Shown here in pieces: positions 17,587 through 43,125 of a stretch of DNA of 46,514 nucleotides (position 1 is its first letter; each line of letters starts with the position of its first letter). Location of the stretch: positions 1 to 46,514 of the IMG/VR virus record IMGVR_UViG_3300009181_000122. The stretch is one strand, 5' to 3'. A model generated the notes under the pieces. It saw nothing but the letters and a program-made list of their open reading frames with translations. It was not told where the DNA came from and did no database searches. The translations under genes were made by a program, and so were the position numbers. Source of the stretch: a virus.

Positions 17587-17644
17587 TCCCGTTTCCTTTC
17601 GTGTGTGTGTGGGCTACAGGCAACAGGCCCGTAGCCCATGTGTG

Positions 17645-18295: not shown

Positions 18296-18558
18296 GGTTC
18301 TACCCTCCACGTCTGGTTGAATGTCAGTGTCAGTCGGTTCGCTAGTGCACTGGCCGCGTTGGGCAAGTCACCCATGTGACCACCAACCGACACGCTGTTT
18401 TCTGCACCCACACCCACGATGATGTTGAGTAGTGGGTCGCTCATCGCACACCTATCTGCGATGCTCTGAGCGAGAGTTTCGTTCTCGCACACGACCACCG
18501 TCATGATGTCGTGTCCTATGAGCGGCCGTGGAACAGCAATCCTTGGCGTGCCGTACAT
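18286..18558 (-). CDS. Hypothetical protein
   Basis: A 90-residue protein starting MYGTPRIAVPRPLIGHD, with hydrophobic strands (IMTVVVCEN, LLNIIVGVGAE). The ATG at 18558 has GAAGGAAA upstream. The frame extends 18 codons further, but that stretch covers the terminator at 18587-18618 and is not expected to be translated. No family recognised. Confidence 0.75.
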   Translation of the reverse strand: MYGTPRIAVPRPLIGHDIMTVVVCENETLAQSIADRCAMSDPLLNIIVGVGAENSVSVGGHMGDLPNAASALANRLTLTFNQTWRVEPWA

Positions 18559-18586
18559 GTGTGTGTTTCCTTCGGCGGCAGAGACG

Positions 18587-18618
18587 AAAAAACCCCACGC
18601 ACCCGAAGGCACGTGGGG
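18587..18618 (-). terminator. Rho-independent terminator
   Basis: On the minus strand CCCCACGTGCC and GGTGCGTGGGG pair around a TTCG loop, followed by six T. It lies between the genes at 18639-18848 and 18286-18558. Confidence 0.9.
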
Positions 18619-18638
18619 CGAGTGTGTGCCGAACCGTA

Positions 18639-18848
18639 TCAGCGATTACGGTTCATGTACGCGATGGCTTCGGCGTACTCTCGCCTCATGCGGGCGACTG
18701 CCATCTCCGCGCTCTCGGCGGTGGAGAACCCCTTCACAGGAGAACTCCCTTCGCGAATGATGGTGTACGTGATGCTTGAGTGGCCGGGGCGAAGGACATC
18801 GTTGACGCGATGGTTTGTCTGCTCTGCGATGATGGTGTAGTTCTGCAT
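18639..18848 (-). CDS. Small hypothetical protein
   Basis: A 69-residue basic protein: strands at the N-terminus (YTIIAEQTNH, ITYTIIREG) and one helix at the C-terminus (SAEMAVARMRREYAEAIAYM). The ATG at 18848 stands six bases after GGGGA; an ATG two codons earlier directly abuts the SD and is disfavoured. A terminator follows 21 bp after the stop. Size and layout resemble small phage takeover or inhibitor proteins, but no function can be assigned. Confidence 0.75.
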   Translation of the reverse strand: MQNYTIIAEQTNHRVNDVLRPGHSSITYTIIREGSSPVKGFSTAESAEMAVARMRREYAEAIAYMNRNR

Positions 18849-18870
18849 TGTCATTCCCCTTCGTGTGTGG

Positions 18871-19071
18871 TTACTTGCTGGGTTCGACAGACCAGACAAT
18901 CTCGGCGAAACTCAAGCGCAACGCACGAACGATCTGGCGAGCGTTGTCGCCCTCCACATGTCCGTAGTTGTCGTCCTCACAAGCGACGGGGCGAATGATT
19001 GCCAGTCGGCCAAGTGCGTTTGCGAGGATCTTACCCTCGCGAGTGGCTGGTACGGTGATGAGCGTTCTCAT
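18871..19071 (-). CDS. Small hypothetical protein downstream of structured leader A
   Basis: A 66-residue protein starting MRTLITVPATREGKILANAL, a strand-helix-strand pattern with no recognised family. The ATG at 19071 has GGAAGGAG upstream and lies 20 bases after the RNA element at 19091-19141. An in-frame extension through that element is rejected because the element matches the non-coding copy at 19855. Confidence 0.7.
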   Translation of the reverse strand: MRTLITVPATREGKILANALGRLAIIRPVACEDDNYGHVEGDNARQIVRALRLSFAEIVWSVEPSK

Positions 19072-19090
19072 GAGTGAGAAACTCCTTCCG

Positions 19091-19141
19091 TGTGTCCGTA
19101 GCGTGCCGTTCACTGCCGAAGCGGATGTAACGGTGGACACA
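19091..19141 (-). ncRNA. Structured 5' leader RNA element, copy A
   Basis: Read on the minus strand, TGTGTCC pairs with GGACACA (P1, 7 bp) and CCGTT with AACGG (P2). A short apical stem is capped by a C(UUCG)G tetraloop, and CACGCUAC is left unpaired on the 3' side. Copy B at 19855-19902 differs at several positions, yet most paired changes preserve pairing. The element touches the T-run of the preceding terminator and ends 20 bases before the ATG. It could be a regulatory leader, processing signal or protein-binding site. Confidence 0.65.
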
Positions 19142-19175
19142 AAAAAACCTCTCGCACCCCGAAGGGTACGAGAGG
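19141..19175 (-). terminator. Rho-independent terminator (identical to 19902-19936)
   Basis: CCTCTCGTACC and GGTGCGAGAGG form a stem (one mismatch-type T-G pair) around a CTTCGG loop and are followed by seven T on the minus strand. It ends the transcript of the gene at 19198-19836. Confidence 0.9.
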
Positions 19176-19197
19176 CGAGGGGCTAGTGCAGTGTGTG

Positions 19198-19836
19198 CTA
19201 TGCCAGTCGAAGGATCAACGCAACCTTCTCGTTGTCCGTGAGACTGTTGCTCTCTGCGAGTGCACGAATCCCCATCAGGGTCTCGTGCATGCGATCCTCT
19301 CGCTTGCCCGAATCGTTGAGCAGATCGCTCAGTTCTGCGCCAATGTTCAAGTGCTTGTCCGCATCCTTGGCTGCTTCGGATGCCATCTCGGTCATCATCA
19401 CGAGCGAAGACTGCAACTCTGCGATGTCCTCGTCCTTCCGTGCGTTTGAGTCACGTGCATCCTCAAGTTCCTTCACGGTACCTGACATGTCACGCTCGTA
19501 CCCATGGATGCGATCTTCGAGCGTGTCAATGCTCATCTGGAGACTCTCAGCACGTGCGATGGCGTCGAAGTGCATGTTGCTCTGGTAGGTGAGCAACATG
19601 CGCTTCTCCACGAGTTCGGTATTGCGGCGTGCGATGGCCGCTTCGAGATCGCGGATCACGAGATTGAGGTTCTCATAACGTGCGTCGATGTGCTTTGCAG
19701 GCTGGCACATGTTGTCGATGGCAGCAGCCTCATCAGCCGCACGGGCTACCGCATCCTGAGCGCAGTCGTTGCAGCCGGTCTGGCACCCGCACTCGTCCTC
19801 GTTGAGCGTTGCACCGTTGGCGTTGTGGTTGAGCAT
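19198..19836 (-). CDS. Cys-cluster coiled-coil hypothetical protein
   Basis: A 212-residue protein. A Cys cluster near the N-terminus (CGCQTGCNDC, residues about 16-25) could bind metal or form disulfides. Residues about 50-165 form a long heptad coiled coil (LEAAIARRNTELVEKRMLL, RDMSGTVKELEDARDSNARK), and a short helical tail follows. The ATG at 19836 with GGGAGA upstream sits 19 bases after RNA element B. It is flanked on both sides by identical terminators, so it is probably a single-gene unit. No family recognised. Confidence 0.8.
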   Translation of the reverse strand: MLNHNANGATLNEDECGCQTGCNDCAQDAVARAADEAAAIDNMCQPAKHIDARYENLNLVIRDLEAAIARRNTELVEKRMLLTYQSNMHFDAIARAESLQMSIDTLEDRIHGYERDMSGTVKELEDARDSNARKDEDIAELQSSLVMMTEMASEAAKDADKHLNIGAELSDLLNDSGKREDRMHETLMGIRALAESNSLTDNEKVALILRLA

Positions 19837-19854
19837 TGGAGTCTCCCATGAGCA

Positions 19855-19902
19855 TGTGTCTGAGCGTGCCGCCCACTGCAAGCAGATGTGACGGTAGACA
19901 CA
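19855..19902 (-). ncRNA. Structured 5' leader RNA element, copy B
   Basis: Minus-strand P1 is TGTGTCT/AGACACA (a C-G to T-A change relative to copy A). P2 is CCGTC/GGCGG, where the T-G pair works only in this strand's RNA. The apical stem CTG/CAG has a CUUG tetraloop in place of UUCG. It abuts a terminator T-run upstream and stands 19 bases before the ATG of the coiled-coil gene. Confidence 0.65.
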
Positions 19903-19936
19903 AAAAAACCTCTCGCACCCCGAAGGGTACGAGAGG
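19902..19936 (-). terminator. Rho-independent terminator (identical to 19141-19175)
   Basis: Same 28-base hairpin and seven-T run as at 19141-19175, with no differences. It ends the transcript of the gene at 19958-20419. Confidence 0.9.
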
Positions 19937-19957
19937 CGAGTGTGTGTGCAGGGTGGA

Positions 19958-20419
19958 CTAGGCTACGGTGGCTACCGGCGGTACGAACCGTCCGACAACC
20001 TTCACCGTGGCCGTGCCCGCCCAGATGTACACGACCGCGGCAGTCTTGCCAGAACCAGCGATGGTGATGGCATCCGTGAACCCCTGCGAACCCTCGGGTG
20101 CCTTCGCCATGTTCTTGGCGGGCGTGCTACCCACCCCAGTGACGACCCCGCGATAGGTCTCTGCCACCACGACGTTGCCGTTGACACAGCGAACGCTACT
20201 GGCCGGAACAGTGACGATGTCTCCCTTGCGGTAGGCACCCTTGAGCGCGGCCGGGGTGGTGTCATAGGTCTTCTCAACGACGACTGCAACTGGAGTGGTC
20301 TTCGCTACGGGCGTGGCCTTGACTGCGGGTGCTGCGACTGCGCGGGTTTCGAGTGCCTTGATCCTCGACTCGAAGTTGTCCATCCGCTCGCTCAGGCTCT
20401 TGCAGGTGATCGCTGCCAT
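19958..20419 (-). CDS. Ala/Thr/Val-rich hypothetical protein
   Basis: A 153-residue protein. An N-terminal helix (SLSERMDNFESRIKALETR) is followed by an Ala/Pro/Thr/Val linker and a beta-rich C-terminal domain (KGDIVTVPASSVRCVNGNVV, VVYIWAGTATVKVVGRFVPP). The architecture resembles a coiled-coil stalk carrying a small beta domain, as in decoration or fibre-type proteins. The ATG at 20419 has only a weak SD, and the frame runs further upstream through a GTG at 20485. It is the first minus-strand gene left of the divergent region. No family recognised. Confidence 0.7.
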   Translation of the reverse strand: MAAITCKSLSERMDNFESRIKALETRAVAAPAVKATPVAKTTPVAVVVEKTYDTTPAALKGAYRKGDIVTVPASSVRCVNGNVVVAETYRGVVTGVGSTPAKNMAKAPEGSQGFTDAITIAGSGKTAAVVYIWAGTATVKVVGRFVPPVATVA

Positions 20420-20762
20420 TGTGGTTGTCCGTTCTCGGGTCGGTCTCAAGTACCGGATGCCGATGCCGTTATGAACCATACCCACTGTTTTGGGGCAATC
20501 TTATCTGTAAAACTCATTTGACTCGCAGTTTCTACCCTGTTTTTTTGCACCATCTTGCATGAATTGGATAGGACAATTTTCGGGAAACGTATGCACATGC
20601 AAAATCCCCCCTGCTCAGGTGCGTAAAAAAATTTCTATATTCTGCTCTGATAAAGAGTACACATGCAAAATACACACGAGCCAGACTTACTGCGCGATAC
20701 CCCGGATACCAATCTAAATACCTCCCTTTGCCAGCAAAAATCCAAAATCGTTTCAATAGGTG
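20420..20762. promoter_or_regulatory. Divergent intergenic control region with 12-bp direct repeats
   Basis: This 343-bp region separates minus-strand genes from the plus-strand portal operon, so promoters for both directions are expected. CACATGCAAAAT occurs at 20594-20605 and again at 20660-20671. AT-rich tracts lie at 20626-20640. No convincing sigma70-type -35/-10 pair was found. A small plus-strand ORF, 20663-20854 (63 codons, AAAGAG upstream), overlaps the portal start in another frame and could be a leader peptide, but support is weak. Confidence 0.5.
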
Positions 20763-22940
20763 ATGCCAAAAGAATTCACGATACCCGGAACAACGAAGCA
20801 CACCGAAGACTGGATTGCAATCTGGTTTCGGCGTCAATGGAACCGCTGGCGTGAGCGCCGTGACCTCGACACTGTGGTGCGCGACATCATCTACCAGCAA
20901 AACGACATAGACCCCACCGGCCCCAACGGTGAAGAGAGCAGCCTCAACCATGAGATCGTGAGGACTGGCCTTGCACGTACCCTCATGCGCGAATACGTGG
21001 GCATTATCAGCGGGGAGTCGCCGAAGTTTGAGTGCCTTCCTGATGGTCTCGGCCCGCAGAAGCAGAAGGTTGCTTCAATGGTCGAGGAATGGGATGCCGC
21101 TTGGTATCAGGATGCTGGTGGCAACGATGTCCAATCCCTCGTGGATGGTGACGCCATCGCGTATGGCCGTGGCATCTCCTATGTCGTATGGGCACGCCAG
21201 TACTGGAGTAACTTCCCTGAACCAGAGGAAGGCGAAAACGACGGCAACTATCTCTCGCGTGTCTCCTCATGGGCGCACAACGCACCAAACCCCATCCTCA
21301 GGATGCATTGCCCCGCACCGCAGGCCATGTTCGACGACGACGAATGGACAAGGCTCTACGGTCACCCCAATGTCGTCTACTGGTATCACAGGCCGATCAG
21401 CGAGATCGAAGCGTCGTACCCAAACAGCGAGATTGTGAAGCGTCATAAGGGGAGCAAGAACAGCGCCTCCGATCCGCTCGTGCTATTCATGACAGTCGCG
21501 AACAGGAAGTACATGACCTATGCGGTGTCGCCCAATCTTGCGGTCTCTGATCCCGATTCGCAGAAGGCCCAGCCGGTGGCGGTGCTTCACATGCAGCCGG
21601 GCGACGTGGAAATCCTCAACACCTTTGAGCATGGCGCTGGAAGAAACCCCTTTGAGATTGTGATCGGCGACAGTGGCAGCGATCCGGCCCTTGTACACAA
21701 GTACTCGGGGCTGTTCGACAACTGTCTTCGTGTGCTCGTGCAAATAGACGAAAGTATCAGCCAAGCCGCGACAGCAATCCGGCGCTATGGCAGAGGGCAA
21801 CTCGTACTCATGCACGAGTGGGGGCCAGCGGGTCAGATTCCCGGCGGTGTCGATCCAGACACCATGACGCCCCGTGAAATAGACTGGGAGCCGGGCCGCG
21901 TGCTCTCCCTTGCTCCGGGCGAGAGGCTTGCATTCGTGCAGCCAGACCTCAATGCGTATAAGGCTGGTCTTGAGTTTCATGACCTGCTCACGCGCTATGT
22001 GGCCCGGGACACGATTGACCCAAGCGCATGGAACTCCTCGGCAACAAACAGCGGATTCCAACTCGTGACCATTATCCAGACGGCACAGAGAAAACTCAAG
22101 AACTTTGTCACGAGAAAGAACCGCTCGATTGAGAACACCATGCGGGCTGTCCACGGCATTGTCGAATACATTGACCGGCCGATCTCGATCTTCCGCGCGG
22201 TAGACGAAATGAGCGATGGTGGCACGATTGATTCAGTCGGCGGCTGGGTATCGCTTGATCCTGCTGATGCAAGAAGCGCAAGGATTCGTGTGAAACTCGC
22301 CCCGAAGATCGACTCTGCCGATGCCTCCGCTGCACAGATCGGCATCCAGTTGGCACAGGCGACCACCAATGGCTGGCTCGATATCGACAAGGACTGGATT
22401 CTCTCGCGCTGGCTTGGCCTTGAGAACCCTGAGCGCCACAGAAGGGCTGCCCTGATCCAGCGGTTCATGAACGCGCCAGAGATTCAGCAGTGGCTCACGA
22501 AGCAGGCCATCGACGATGCAGAGATGAGTCTGAAGGCAGAGGATGCGAGGAAGGCTCAGGCTCTCCAGAACATGTCGCCAGCAGAAATCGCGATGGCACC
22601 ACAGGCGCTGCAACAGGAACTTGCGGCACGCGGCCTGATCCCCGGTGCTGCTGCCCCCAGTGTTCCGGGCCAGCCCGGCGGCATGATCCCTCCGCAGCAG
22701 GGTGGAATTCCCGGCGGGGCACCGGGCATGGCTGGTCTCATGCAGGCCATCGCGCCGCCGGGTACTCCTGCTCCCGGAAACGGAACCACGGCTGGTGGTG
22801 GCCCCGGTGGCGTAGATGCCATCTCGCAGATGCTGGGTGGTGGCACGCCGCAGCAGAGTCCCTTTGGCGGCCTCGGTGCTGCCCGCTCGGCACAGCAGAC
22901 TGGCACGCCCAACTCCCCGCTTCAAGGCGGAGTCCGATAA
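20763..22940 (+). CDS. Portal protein (head-tail connector)
   Basis: A 725-residue protein with the features of phage portals: an N-terminal aromatic/charged helix (WIAIWFRRQWNRWRERRDLD), a long helix-rich stem with a conserved-looking region at about 320-430, and a Pro/Gly/Gln-rich flexible C-terminus (from about 630). Portals form the dodecameric ring through which TerL pumps DNA. The gene leads a plus-strand operon that converges on TerS/TerL. The ATG at 20763 follows a stop codon and a GTG with no clear SD, so the start is uncertain or translation is unusual. The call rests on size, composition and position; no single diagnostic motif exists for portals. Confidence 0.8.
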   Translation: MPKEFTIPGTTKHTEDWIAIWFRRQWNRWRERRDLDTVVRDIIYQQNDIDPTGPNGEESSLNHEIVRTGLARTLMREYVGIISGESPKFECLPDGLGPQKQKVASMVEEWDAAWYQDAGGNDVQSLVDGDAIAYGRGISYVVWARQYWSNFPEPEEGENDGNYLSRVSSWAHNAPNPILRMHCPAPQAMFDDDEWTRLYGHPNVVYWYHRPISEIEASYPNSEIVKRHKGSKNSASDPLVLFMTVANRKYMTYAVSPNLAVSDPDSQKAQPVAVLHMQPGDVEILNTFEHGAGRNPFEIVIGDSGSDPALVHKYSGLFDNCLRVLVQIDESISQAATAIRRYGRGQLVLMHEWGPAGQIPGGVDPDTMTPREIDWEPGRVLSLAPGERLAFVQPDLNAYKAGLEFHDLLTRYVARDTIDPSAWNSSATNSGFQLVTIIQTAQRKLKNFVTRKNRSIENTMRAVHGIVEYIDRPISIFRAVDEMSDGGTIDSVGGWVSLDPADARSARIRVKLAPKIDSADASAAQIGIQLAQATTNGWLDIDKDWILSRWLGLENPERHRRAALIQRFMNAPEIQQWLTKQAIDDAEMSLKAEDARKAQALQNMSPAEIAMAPQALQQELAARGLIPGAAAPSVPGQPGGMIPPQQGGIPGGAPGMAGLMQAIAPPGTPAPGNGTTAGGGPGGVDAISQMLGGGTPQQSPFGGLGAARSAQQTGTPNSPLQGGVR

Positions 22941-34525: not shown

Positions 34526-35122
34526 ATGGAAGAACTTATATCTCGCGCCAAGGCTGGAGACAAGGAAGCGTTCGGCTTGTTGTCTGAACTCATACGACCT
34601 AAACTCCTCAGCCATATTATCTATCATGTTCGGAATAGGGATATGGCTGAGAATATAATACAACACACATTCTACAAAGCGTTAAAGAAAATAGACTCAG
34701 TACAAGATGGCAAGTTCTATTTCAATGCTTGGATATATACCATAGCGGGCAACCTCATCAGGGACGAGCGCCGCAAGATGCTCAGTCAGAACACCTATTC
34801 GCTTGAGGCCAGAATAGGACTTACCAATGAAAACGCAGACCTCGATCACGCTGAAGACTTCGGGGTCGTGATGATGAATGCAGAACTTGACAGCAGCGTC
34901 CTCGATCCAGCCATGATCTATGAGCGGGAGGAAGAGCGTGTCGAGACTCATGCTCGCCTCAGGATAGCAATGCAACTGCTCACTCCAGTGCAGCGAGAGA
35001 CTTTGATCCGCAGAAGCAATGGTGAGACCTACGCTGAGATTGGCGAAAGCATTGGCATGTCTTGGCAGTCGGTAAAAGGCATTCTGGAAAAAGTCAGGAA
35101 GATCGTAAGGGATGCCTACTAG
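34526..35122 (+). CDS. ECF-like sigma factor (sigma70 family)
   Basis: A 198-residue sigma70-family protein with only regions 2 and 4. Region 2 is visible as AENIIQHTFYKALKKI followed by FNAWIYTIAGNLIRDERRK (about 41-92). Region 4 is LTPVQRETLIRRSNGETYAE followed by IGESIGMSWQSVKGILEKV (about 152-190). A linker with acidic residues separates them. Phage sigma factors redirect host RNA polymerase to late or middle promoters. It is alone on the plus strand, facing away from dnaE. The ATG at 34526 has GGGGAGA upstream. Which promoters it serves cannot be read directly; the two leader/terminator units near 19-20 kb are candidates. Confidence 0.9.
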   Translation: MEELISRAKAGDKEAFGLLSELIRPKLLSHIIYHVRNRDMAENIIQHTFYKALKKIDSVQDGKFYFNAWIYTIAGNLIRDERRKMLSQNTYSLEARIGLTNENADLDHAEDFGVVMMNAELDSSVLDPAMIYEREEERVETHARLRIAMQLLTPVQRETLIRRSNGETYAEIGESIGMSWQSVKGILEKVRKIVRDAY

Positions 35123-41528: not shown

Positions 41529-42905
41529 CTATGAAACAGTAAATTGAGTAGGATTTGAGAAGTTCCATTCAGATTTTTGCATCCAGATATAATAAGATCC
41601 ACTGTCAAGCATGAATGATACTGTTCCATTTGTGCTGCTGTATTGTGTGCCAGCAACAATGTTTTGTCCGCTTACGTCGCTGGTAATCCATGCTGCAACC
41701 CCCTCAATTGGAAGATTTGCTGGGTTCAATATGGTCGTGGTGTGAACAATTGCACCAACGCCTGAGGTGATTCTGCTGCTTACCTTGGCATCTAGGTTAG
41801 CAACCACTGGGGTCTTGATGGCTGTAACGTCTGCTTGCAAACTGGTCAACCCAGTGGTAGCAAGCCGAGAGGAAACAGTGGCATCTAGGTTAGCAACCAC
41901 TGGGGTCTTGATGGCTGTAATGTCTGCTTGTAGAGAGGTAATGCCAGTAGTAGACGTATAGGATGCAGTAGCAAGCCGAGAGGAAACAGTGGCATCTAGG
42001 TTAGCAACCACTGGGGTCTTGATGGCTGTAACGTCTGCTTGCAAACTGGTCAACCCAGTGGTAGCAAGCCGAGAGGAGACAGCGGCATCTAGGTTAGCAA
42101 CCACTGGGGTCTTGATGGCTGTAACGTCTGCTTGCAAACTGGTCAACCCAGTGGTAGCAAGCCGAGAGGAGACAGTGGCATCTAGGTACCCCGCTCTTGT
42201 GGCAGTGTAATCCGCAGCACTCGCCCGTGTGCTAGTCGCCACATCTGTCCGAGTGAGGATGGTTCCTACGCTGGTGTTATCCGGTGCGGTATACGTGAAT
42301 GTTGCCATCCTCGACGCTATCGTGGCATTGATGTTGTCAGTCACCAACTTCCCGACGCTACCCGCTGTGGTAAGCGCTGATGTCAAGGAATCCCATATCT
42401 GCTGGGCTGTGGGCGGAGTAACGGCAAGGGCATATCCAGTCTTGTCGCTATTCGTTCCAACCGTCACTGAGAATCCGAAGCCAGTCAGTGTCCTTGTAGC
42501 AGCGGCCCAGACCAGTGTTGCCGGGTCTTGTCCGGATGAGTAAGCGCCAACCGTGACACTCCCAGTGGCCTGTCTTGAGGTCACGGCTGCATCAAGGTAC
42601 TCTGATCCACTTTTTTGGACACACCAGATGCTTGGTATTTCTCTCTGATCTGGTGTTGCAGATGAAGTTTTAAATATGCAAATATACTCGCCCTCTCCGG
42701 TCACACTTGCTGATCCCAACTGATATCTGTAAAGACCACCACCTATTTCTGTGGCGCTGCCACTAGTAACAATCTGCGAACTCGTGTTTGTTGCAGTCAA
42801 ATGTTTCCATACATCGACTGTAACTGTTAGTCCCGTAACTCCTTGTTTTGATGCAACAAAAAAGGAGAAGAAATCTAAATTGTTCGACAGTTGTTCTAGT
42901 GGCAT
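41529..42905 (-). CDS. Tail-fibre protein with 31-residue tandem repeats
   Basis: A 458-residue fibre. The N-terminal domain (about 1-110) begins MPLEQLSNNLDFFSFFVA. Residues about 240-375 contain four near-identical 31-residue repeats (motif SSRLATTGLTSLQAD ... TAIKTPVVANLDA), one with a six-residue insertion. A C-terminal beta domain (SGQNIVAGTQYSSTNGTVSF) follows and may bind the receptor. The repeat is probably a coiled or beta-helical shaft. The ATG at 42905 follows the upstream stop by two bases; an SD is weak. Confidence 0.82.
   Translation of the reverse strand: MPLEQLSNNLDFFSFFVASKQGVTGLTVTVDVWKHLTATNTSSQIVTSGSATEIGGGLYRYQLGSASVTGEGEYICIFKTSSATPDQREIPSIWCVQKSGSEYLDAAVTSRQATGSVTVGAYSSGQDPATLVWAAATRTLTGFGFSVTVGTNSDKTGYALAVTPPTAQQIWDSLTSALTTAGSVGKLVTDNINATIASRMATFTYTAPDNTSVGTILTRTDVATSTRASAADYTATRAGYLDATVSSRLATTGLTSLQADVTAIKTPVVANLDAAVSSRLATTGLTSLQADVTAIKTPVVANLDATVSSRLATASYTSTTGITSLQADITAIKTPVVANLDATVSSRLATTGLTSLQADVTAIKTPVVANLDAKVSSRITSGVGAIVHTTTILNPANLPIEGVAAWITSDVSGQNIVAGTQYSSTNGTVSFMLDSGSYYIWMQKSEWNFSNPTQFTVS
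41788..42177. repeat. 93-bp tandem direct repeats within a fibre gene
   Basis: Units at 41788-41880, 41881-41991 (with an extra 18 bp), 41992-42084 and 42085-42177 are near-identical; a fifth is truncated after GCATCTAGG. They remain in frame and encode the fibre shaft, so unequal recombination would change fibre length in steps of 31 residues. Confidence 0.9.
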
Positions 42906-42909
42906 TCGT

Positions 42910-43125
42910 TTACTGGCCCTGAGAAGGTGGCACAAACGTTACTTCCGCATGCACCGAAACCAACTGGATATTGCCCTTCTCCGGTGAGAAGTCCGGGTGT
43001 CCAAGACGGTAGCCTGCCATCAACGCCTGCCCCTGCTCCGTGCGAAGACCCAACTGAATGAGTGCCTCGACAATTGGGACTGGCAATGCATAATTCTTTT
43101 CCGCAGACTGTTCCTTAGTAACCAT
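42910..43125 (-). CDS. Small fibre-operon protein
   Basis: A 71-residue protein (MVTKEQSAEKNYALPV, then VEALIQLGLRTEQGQALMAG) without a recognised family. ATG at 43125 with GAAAGGAG upstream. It lies between two fibre genes and may be a chaperone or fibre-assembly factor. It overlaps neither neighbour. Confidence 0.65.
   Translation of the reverse strand: MVTKEQSAEKNYALPVPIVEALIQLGLRTEQGQALMAGYRLGHPDFSPEKGNIQLVSVHAEVTFVPPSQGQ

Follow-up and report, generated by a model that had tools for sequence, protein, structure and literature searches.

Two copies of a predicted folded leader RNA, each behind an identical terminator, in the small-gene array of a tailed phage

The window (the whole stretch of DNA analysed here, a 46.5-kb virus record) belongs to an uncultured tailed phage with a portal, a terminase, a DnaE-type polymerase, a primase/helicase and a sigma-70-like factor. 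The gene for the sigma-70-like factor runs opposite to the adjacent genes, and a gene for a large protein (41529-42935, minus strand) contains repeated segments, with matches recurring near 41.8-42.1 kb. Left of the portal gene starts a leftward array of small genes: X, then Y, Z and others (Table 1). Gene X takes the position held by the first array genes in the related loci L003, L006 and L008. The product of Y is predicted to form a long coiled coil (helix 22-195, mean pLDDT 84) and has no confident family. That of Z is predicted with low confidence (pLDDT 68) to have a beta-alpha-beta-beta-alpha-beta arrangement, for which a fold search gave no significant match. Y and Z are unrelated to each other. 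Profile scores among the small array proteins were no more than weak, and we do not claim that they are paralogues.

Table 1. Features of the window and pseudoknot loci in other viral records (positions are those of the window unless a locus is named)
Feature	Positions	Strand	Remarks
Portal gene	20760-22940	+	
Gene X	19958..20419	-	First gene of the array, upstream of terminator T1
Intrinsic terminator T1	19908..19937	-	13-bp hairpin, UUCG loop, U7 tract; 3' of gene X
Leader A	19855..19902	-	P1 19901-19896/19861-19856; P2 19894-19890/19873-19869; apical CUG(CUUG)CAG; unpaired CACGCU 19868-19863
Gene Y	19198..19836	-	212 aa
Intrinsic terminator T2	19147..19176	-	Sequence identical to T1
Leader B	19091..19141	-	P1 19140-19135/19097-19092; P2 19133-19129/19110-19106; apical CCG(CUU)CGG; unpaired CACGCU 19105-19100
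Separate hairpin, leader B unit only	19059..19084	-	Predicted; pairs GGAG Shine-Dalgarno of gene Z, encloses AUG region
Gene Z	18871..19071	-	66 aa
Terminator T3	18592..18619	-	Other sequence, same layout: CACACACUCGCC, hairpin and U tract
Leader C	18559-18591	-	3' of terminator T3
Hairpin D	17610..17638	-	Gap G7-G8, intergenic, between CACACA runs, before Shine-Dalgarno of gene 17586-17041; z -3.7
Sigma-70-like factor	34526-35122	+	Sigma70_r2 E 6e-9, weak region 4
Pseudoknot GGUUGGCAGAYCC-N-AAAACUGCCACACA	L006:2327-3354	-	
Same	L008:7734-8366	-	
Same	L015:1029-1069	-	
Same	L017:6223-6263	+	
Same	L013:9907-9946	-	

The gaps X-Y and Y-Z each hold one copy of a cassette in which the stop codon, the terminator of the upstream gene, a folded leader, the Shine-Dalgarno (SD) sequence and the next gene follow one another. 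A preliminary description had reported two elements of about 50 nt before unrelated small genes, each directly after an identical terminator. This duplication is real: the direct repeat measures 61 nt at 95% identity and extends to about 113 nt at 85%. The terminator hairpin is unchanged between the copies, as had been claimed, and belongs to an identical block of 44 nt that includes the U7 tract. Leader A ends 18 nt before the ATG of gene Y and leader B 19 nt before that of gene Z, and both are intergenic and on the coding (minus) strand. Six transitions and two indels separate the two leaders, and the divergence is concentrated there (8 events over the 50 nt of leader versus none over the 44 nt of the terminator block; Fisher p = 0.006). 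Further along the array, in unit C (18540-18591, minus strand), an 18-nt stretch across the start codon resembles leader B at 15 of 18 positions (P = 0.004 by mononucleotide shuffling). Judged by its sequence, it may possibly be a decayed third copy of the leader.

RNAfold predicts the helices P1 (GUGUCY/RGACAC) and P2 (CCGUY/RRCGG) separately in each copy, with pair probabilities of 0.91-1.00 and 0.53-0.95, respectively. The leader helix consists of a 6-bp and a 5-bp stem, both short, with an asymmetric internal loop of 7-8 nt between them, and an unpaired CACGCU strand is invariant between leaders A and B. Every one of the six substitutions is a transition and lies within a helix. Four of them make up two double changes (C-G/U-A in P1 and U-A/C-G in P2), and the remaining two turn a U-A pair of P2 into U-G and an apical C.A into U-A; these are the pair-keeping changes listed in the preliminary description. 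Six random transitions gave at least two double changes and no broken P1 or P2 pair with P = 0.0028 (200,000 trials), a value that is suggestive, not proof, as it compares only two sequences, and these also served to predict the structure. With only two copies, the window element falls short, on its own, of the evidence expected of a covarying RNA family. The supposed exchange of a UUCG for a CUUG tetraloop found no support: UUCG has a probability of about 0.05 in copy B, where the triloop CCG(CUU)CGG is preferred.

Folding stability of the single copies is modest, with z-scores of -1.8 and -1.6 for the two leaders. Random variants with an equal number of changes fold as well as leader A in 18% of cases, and a column-shuffle control, uninformative on an alignment of two rows only, gave 122 of 500. 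The reverse complement of leader B folds better than the leader itself (-21.4 versus -16.3 kcal/mol), and that of leader A slightly worse (-14.6 versus -16.0 kcal/mol). The U-A/U-G change is present as claimed, but the strand preference drawn from it, a U-G pair formed only in the minus-strand RNA, hangs on one cell, and the opposite strand folds too.

The leader structure stops well short of the SD sequence, which is not hidden by the leader itself. In the leader B unit the SD of gene Z is paired in a second predicted hairpin, with an unpaired probability of about 0 for its GAG bases, so that translation initiation on Z may require assistance; the leader A unit has no SD hairpin of comparable strength. 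Two other arrangements were considered and discarded. An alternative pairing between terminator and leader loses to the local folds. A leader peptide MSTVTSA (GUG-UCY-ACC-GUY-ACA-UCY-GC, with three third-position changes) has its frame destroyed by a 2-nt indel, and its SD-like GAGGU sits in the terminator stem.

Searches for further copies of the leader were bounded by the collections and exact patterns used. A covariance-model search, which the preliminary description had called for, returned no homologue in the window and 11 viral records, and an exact pattern found no third copy in IMG/VR. BLAST of the leader against known phages gave matches at E >= 6 only. In Rfam 15, taking the family's gathering score or above as the measure of membership, the whole window matched a tRNA only, and positions 18400-20500 gave no match up to E = 3. 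No close relatives were found via genes Y, Z and the helicase. One locus (L009) has 85% DNA identity to the window, but ends before the leader element. A sole match to the pattern of the leader tail, in L019, was dismissed as chance, since it falls within coding sequence of an unrelated phage.

Relatives were picked by the portal protein (76% protein identity), which gave nine IMG/VR loci; none of them has the window leader, and several are fragments short of the region. Where their small genes correspond to those of the window, most of the intervening gaps contain either a hairpin or a pseudoknot, H-type by its topology. The pseudoknot element reads GCGG-U-UGGCAG-AY-CCGC-linker(N)-AAAA-CUGCCA-CACACA-SD, with a one-nt loop 1, an S2 of 6 bp and an A-rich loop 3. 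There are three copies in each of L006, L007 and L008 and one in each of L004 and L010, all within this gene array and just before the SD; none was seen in the window. Across seven distinct sequences, every S2 cell is paired (100%, one of them as G-U), and double changes affect two of the S1 pairs. Overall, 88.6% of the cells are paired, compared with 28-41% in slid controls.

The pseudoknot pattern was absent from 84,980 bacterial and archaeal genomes, and no Rfam 15 family matched the leader at the pseudoknot loci. Three extra records carry it (L013, L015 and L017). They were retrieved by the motif itself, and sequence identity there reflects that selection; by our own estimate the chance expectation for the pattern is far below one (about 0.005). 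In L013 it stands just before a tRNA. In L015 and L017, which are near-identical around the motif, it precedes a small gene and lies directly 3' of a TATAAATA box, which we take to resemble a T4 late promoter. These two records also have a tmRNA gene (L015:2049-2422, minus strand; L017:4858-5243, plus strand) that scores both as beta-proteobacterial and as permuted tmRNA.

Other gaps of the arrays are structured as well. The hairpin of gap 1-2 has a z-score of -4.7 in L008, -3.0 in L006 and -4.6 in L003, and the strong first-gap hairpins of L006 and L008 have no U tract. Many array gaps have CACACA between structure and SD, as does that of hairpin D in the window. The X-Y and Y-Z gaps of the window also score strongly, with their terminator hairpins included. 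Gap G6-G7 of the window shows no structure and gap Z-G4 has no room for any.

We give about an even chance to the reading of leaders A and B as duplicates of one folded mRNA leader, lying just upstream of the ribosome-binding site and acting on translation or message lifetime. We infer that RNA across the leader would be made by polymerase that partly reads through the terminator, or from a promoter, and that the 5' part of the downstream message would fold into P1/P2. This fold would most likely set translation initiation and lifetime of the small gene's message, either alone or via a phage or host RNA-binding factor reading the invariant unpaired CACGCU. The reading is favoured because P1 and P2 are predicted independently in both copies, because the two double changes and the U-A/U-G change leave no P1 or P2 pair broken, because the changes cluster in the leader beside 44 identical nt, and because the leaders are intergenic, on the coding strand and 18-19 nt from the ATGs. 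It is also favoured because pseudoknot leaders precede SDs in the arrays of L004, L006, L007, L008 and L010, and because strong hairpins stand in the first array gaps of L006 and L008 and in gap G7-G8 of the window. It is weakened because there are two copies only, no homologue was found in the searches above and the single-copy z is about -1.7; because the reverse complement folds and the gap z-scores include terminators; because of the gaps Z-G4 and G6-G7; and because the leader ends before the SD without hiding it. The earlier proposal of a selected RNA leader thus stands in part: the two compensatory pairs and, more strongly, the context in the relatives speak for it, and the weak single-copy stability and missing homologue against it.

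Three other explanations bear on the same evidence. The cassette might serve processing and stabilisation, read-through RNA being cut in the U-rich linker, or by RNase III in the leader, so that the upstream message would keep a hairpin at its 3' end and the downstream message would gain a 5' hairpin that protects it. The predicted series of terminator hairpin, single-stranded U7 and leader hairpin, each folding independently, would suit this, and the upstream-gap hairpins of L006 and L008, lacking a U tract, fit end protectors rather than terminators. However, a large internal loop splits the leader stems, which are short, and processing alone does not explain the invariant unpaired CACGCU, so that we regard this as rather unlikely. 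Processing of the modelled leader by RNase III is possible, with nothing specific in its support. The RNase III processing sites of T7 lie between early genes and are, like the window leaders, intergenic hairpins between small phage genes; the predicted window helix is smaller and split, and follows an intrinsic terminator in each case. It is very unlikely, in our judgement, that the leader is a functionless product of a recent intergenic duplication whose pair-keeping differences arose by chance or as a gene-conversion patchwork. Such an origin would agree with two copies only, with their weak individual stability and with an identical terminator block next to a diverged leader, as in patchy conversion, but the pair pattern has a chance of about 0.003, and in the relatives many gaps of the same array are structured.

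The inverted repeat could also work as DNA, as a promoter or operator after the terminator, the pairing changes then keeping a DNA inverted repeat. The same has been proposed for ESAS of cluster K mycobacteriophages, repeats of about 50 bp with imperfect 17-bp inverted repeats that precede some genes (PMC3203893) and that were later reported with SigA-like promoters, one of them beside a terminator-like stem (PMC11373665); moreover, the phage of the window has its own sigma-70-like factor. We think this improbable: a consensus scan found no sigma-70-like promoter at either leader (19.1 and 19.9 kb), the U-G pair breaks the DNA symmetry, and the equivalent gaps in the relatives hold a pseudoknot, not a simple inverted repeat. 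What repeated start-associated elements do in phages has not been settled since they became known in 2011; the function of SAS/ESAS is still unclear, and their consensus varies between subclusters (PMC3203893, PMC11373665, PMC12699233). Like them, the window leaders are short elements repeated before a subset of the genes of one phage genome. With ESAS they share a length of about 50 bp, an imperfect inverted repeat with a variable spacer, a position just upstream of start codons and a neighbouring terminator (one ESAS stands beside a candidate terminator). The two copies, their arms and the change in loop length thus follow the ESAS layout, a resemblance in layout only. Unlike ESAS with their SigA-like -35/-10 hexamers, the leaders showed no such hexamers in the scan, and they are only two, each right after an identical terminator and with a two-helix fold containing an internal loop. 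The 13-bp SAS GGGATAGGAGCCC was not seen in the sequence read before the Y and Z starts.

A known RNA counterpart is the translational operator of gene 32 in T4 and RB69, an RNA pseudoknot that in T4 needs UUAAA/UAAA repeats (PMC535899). Like it, the window leader is predicted to fold ahead of a phage gene's ribosome-binding site, but it is a stem with an internal loop; by inspection no second helix crosses P1/P2, and the leader is not of the H-type. The pseudoknot of the relatives shares H-type topology and position with the operator. Unlike the operator it is present in multiple copies and only about 6 nt before the SD, and we do not claim that it is a member.

RNA structure, not DNA sequence alone, is suggested by how the two copies differ and by the covarying pseudoknot that relatives have at this place. 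Folded leaders in the same small-gene block of related phages point to RNA-level control of those genes. Tentatively, and with the odds against it, the array could be an assembly of interchangeable RNA cassettes placed between genes: different leaders (the P1/P2 stem or the H-type pseudoknot) would serve one and the same purpose before the SD, and the pseudoknot GGUUGGCAGAYCC-N-AAAACUGCCACACA would be an undescribed class of viral RNA across otherwise dissimilar phages. The leaders are short and portable, and their effect on translation and mRNA lifetime is directly testable with paired mutations in a reporter.

The divergent region beside the portal gene contains a TGTCCTA that is conserved in four phages (window 20530-20640, L003 9834, L006 4419 and L008 9813; minus strand); three of them (window, L006 and L008) have GGGGGGATTT in common as well, upstream of TGTCCTA. 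By its sequence TGTCCTA is a candidate promoter or operator; it resembles the GTGTCYACC of the leaders over about 7 nt only.
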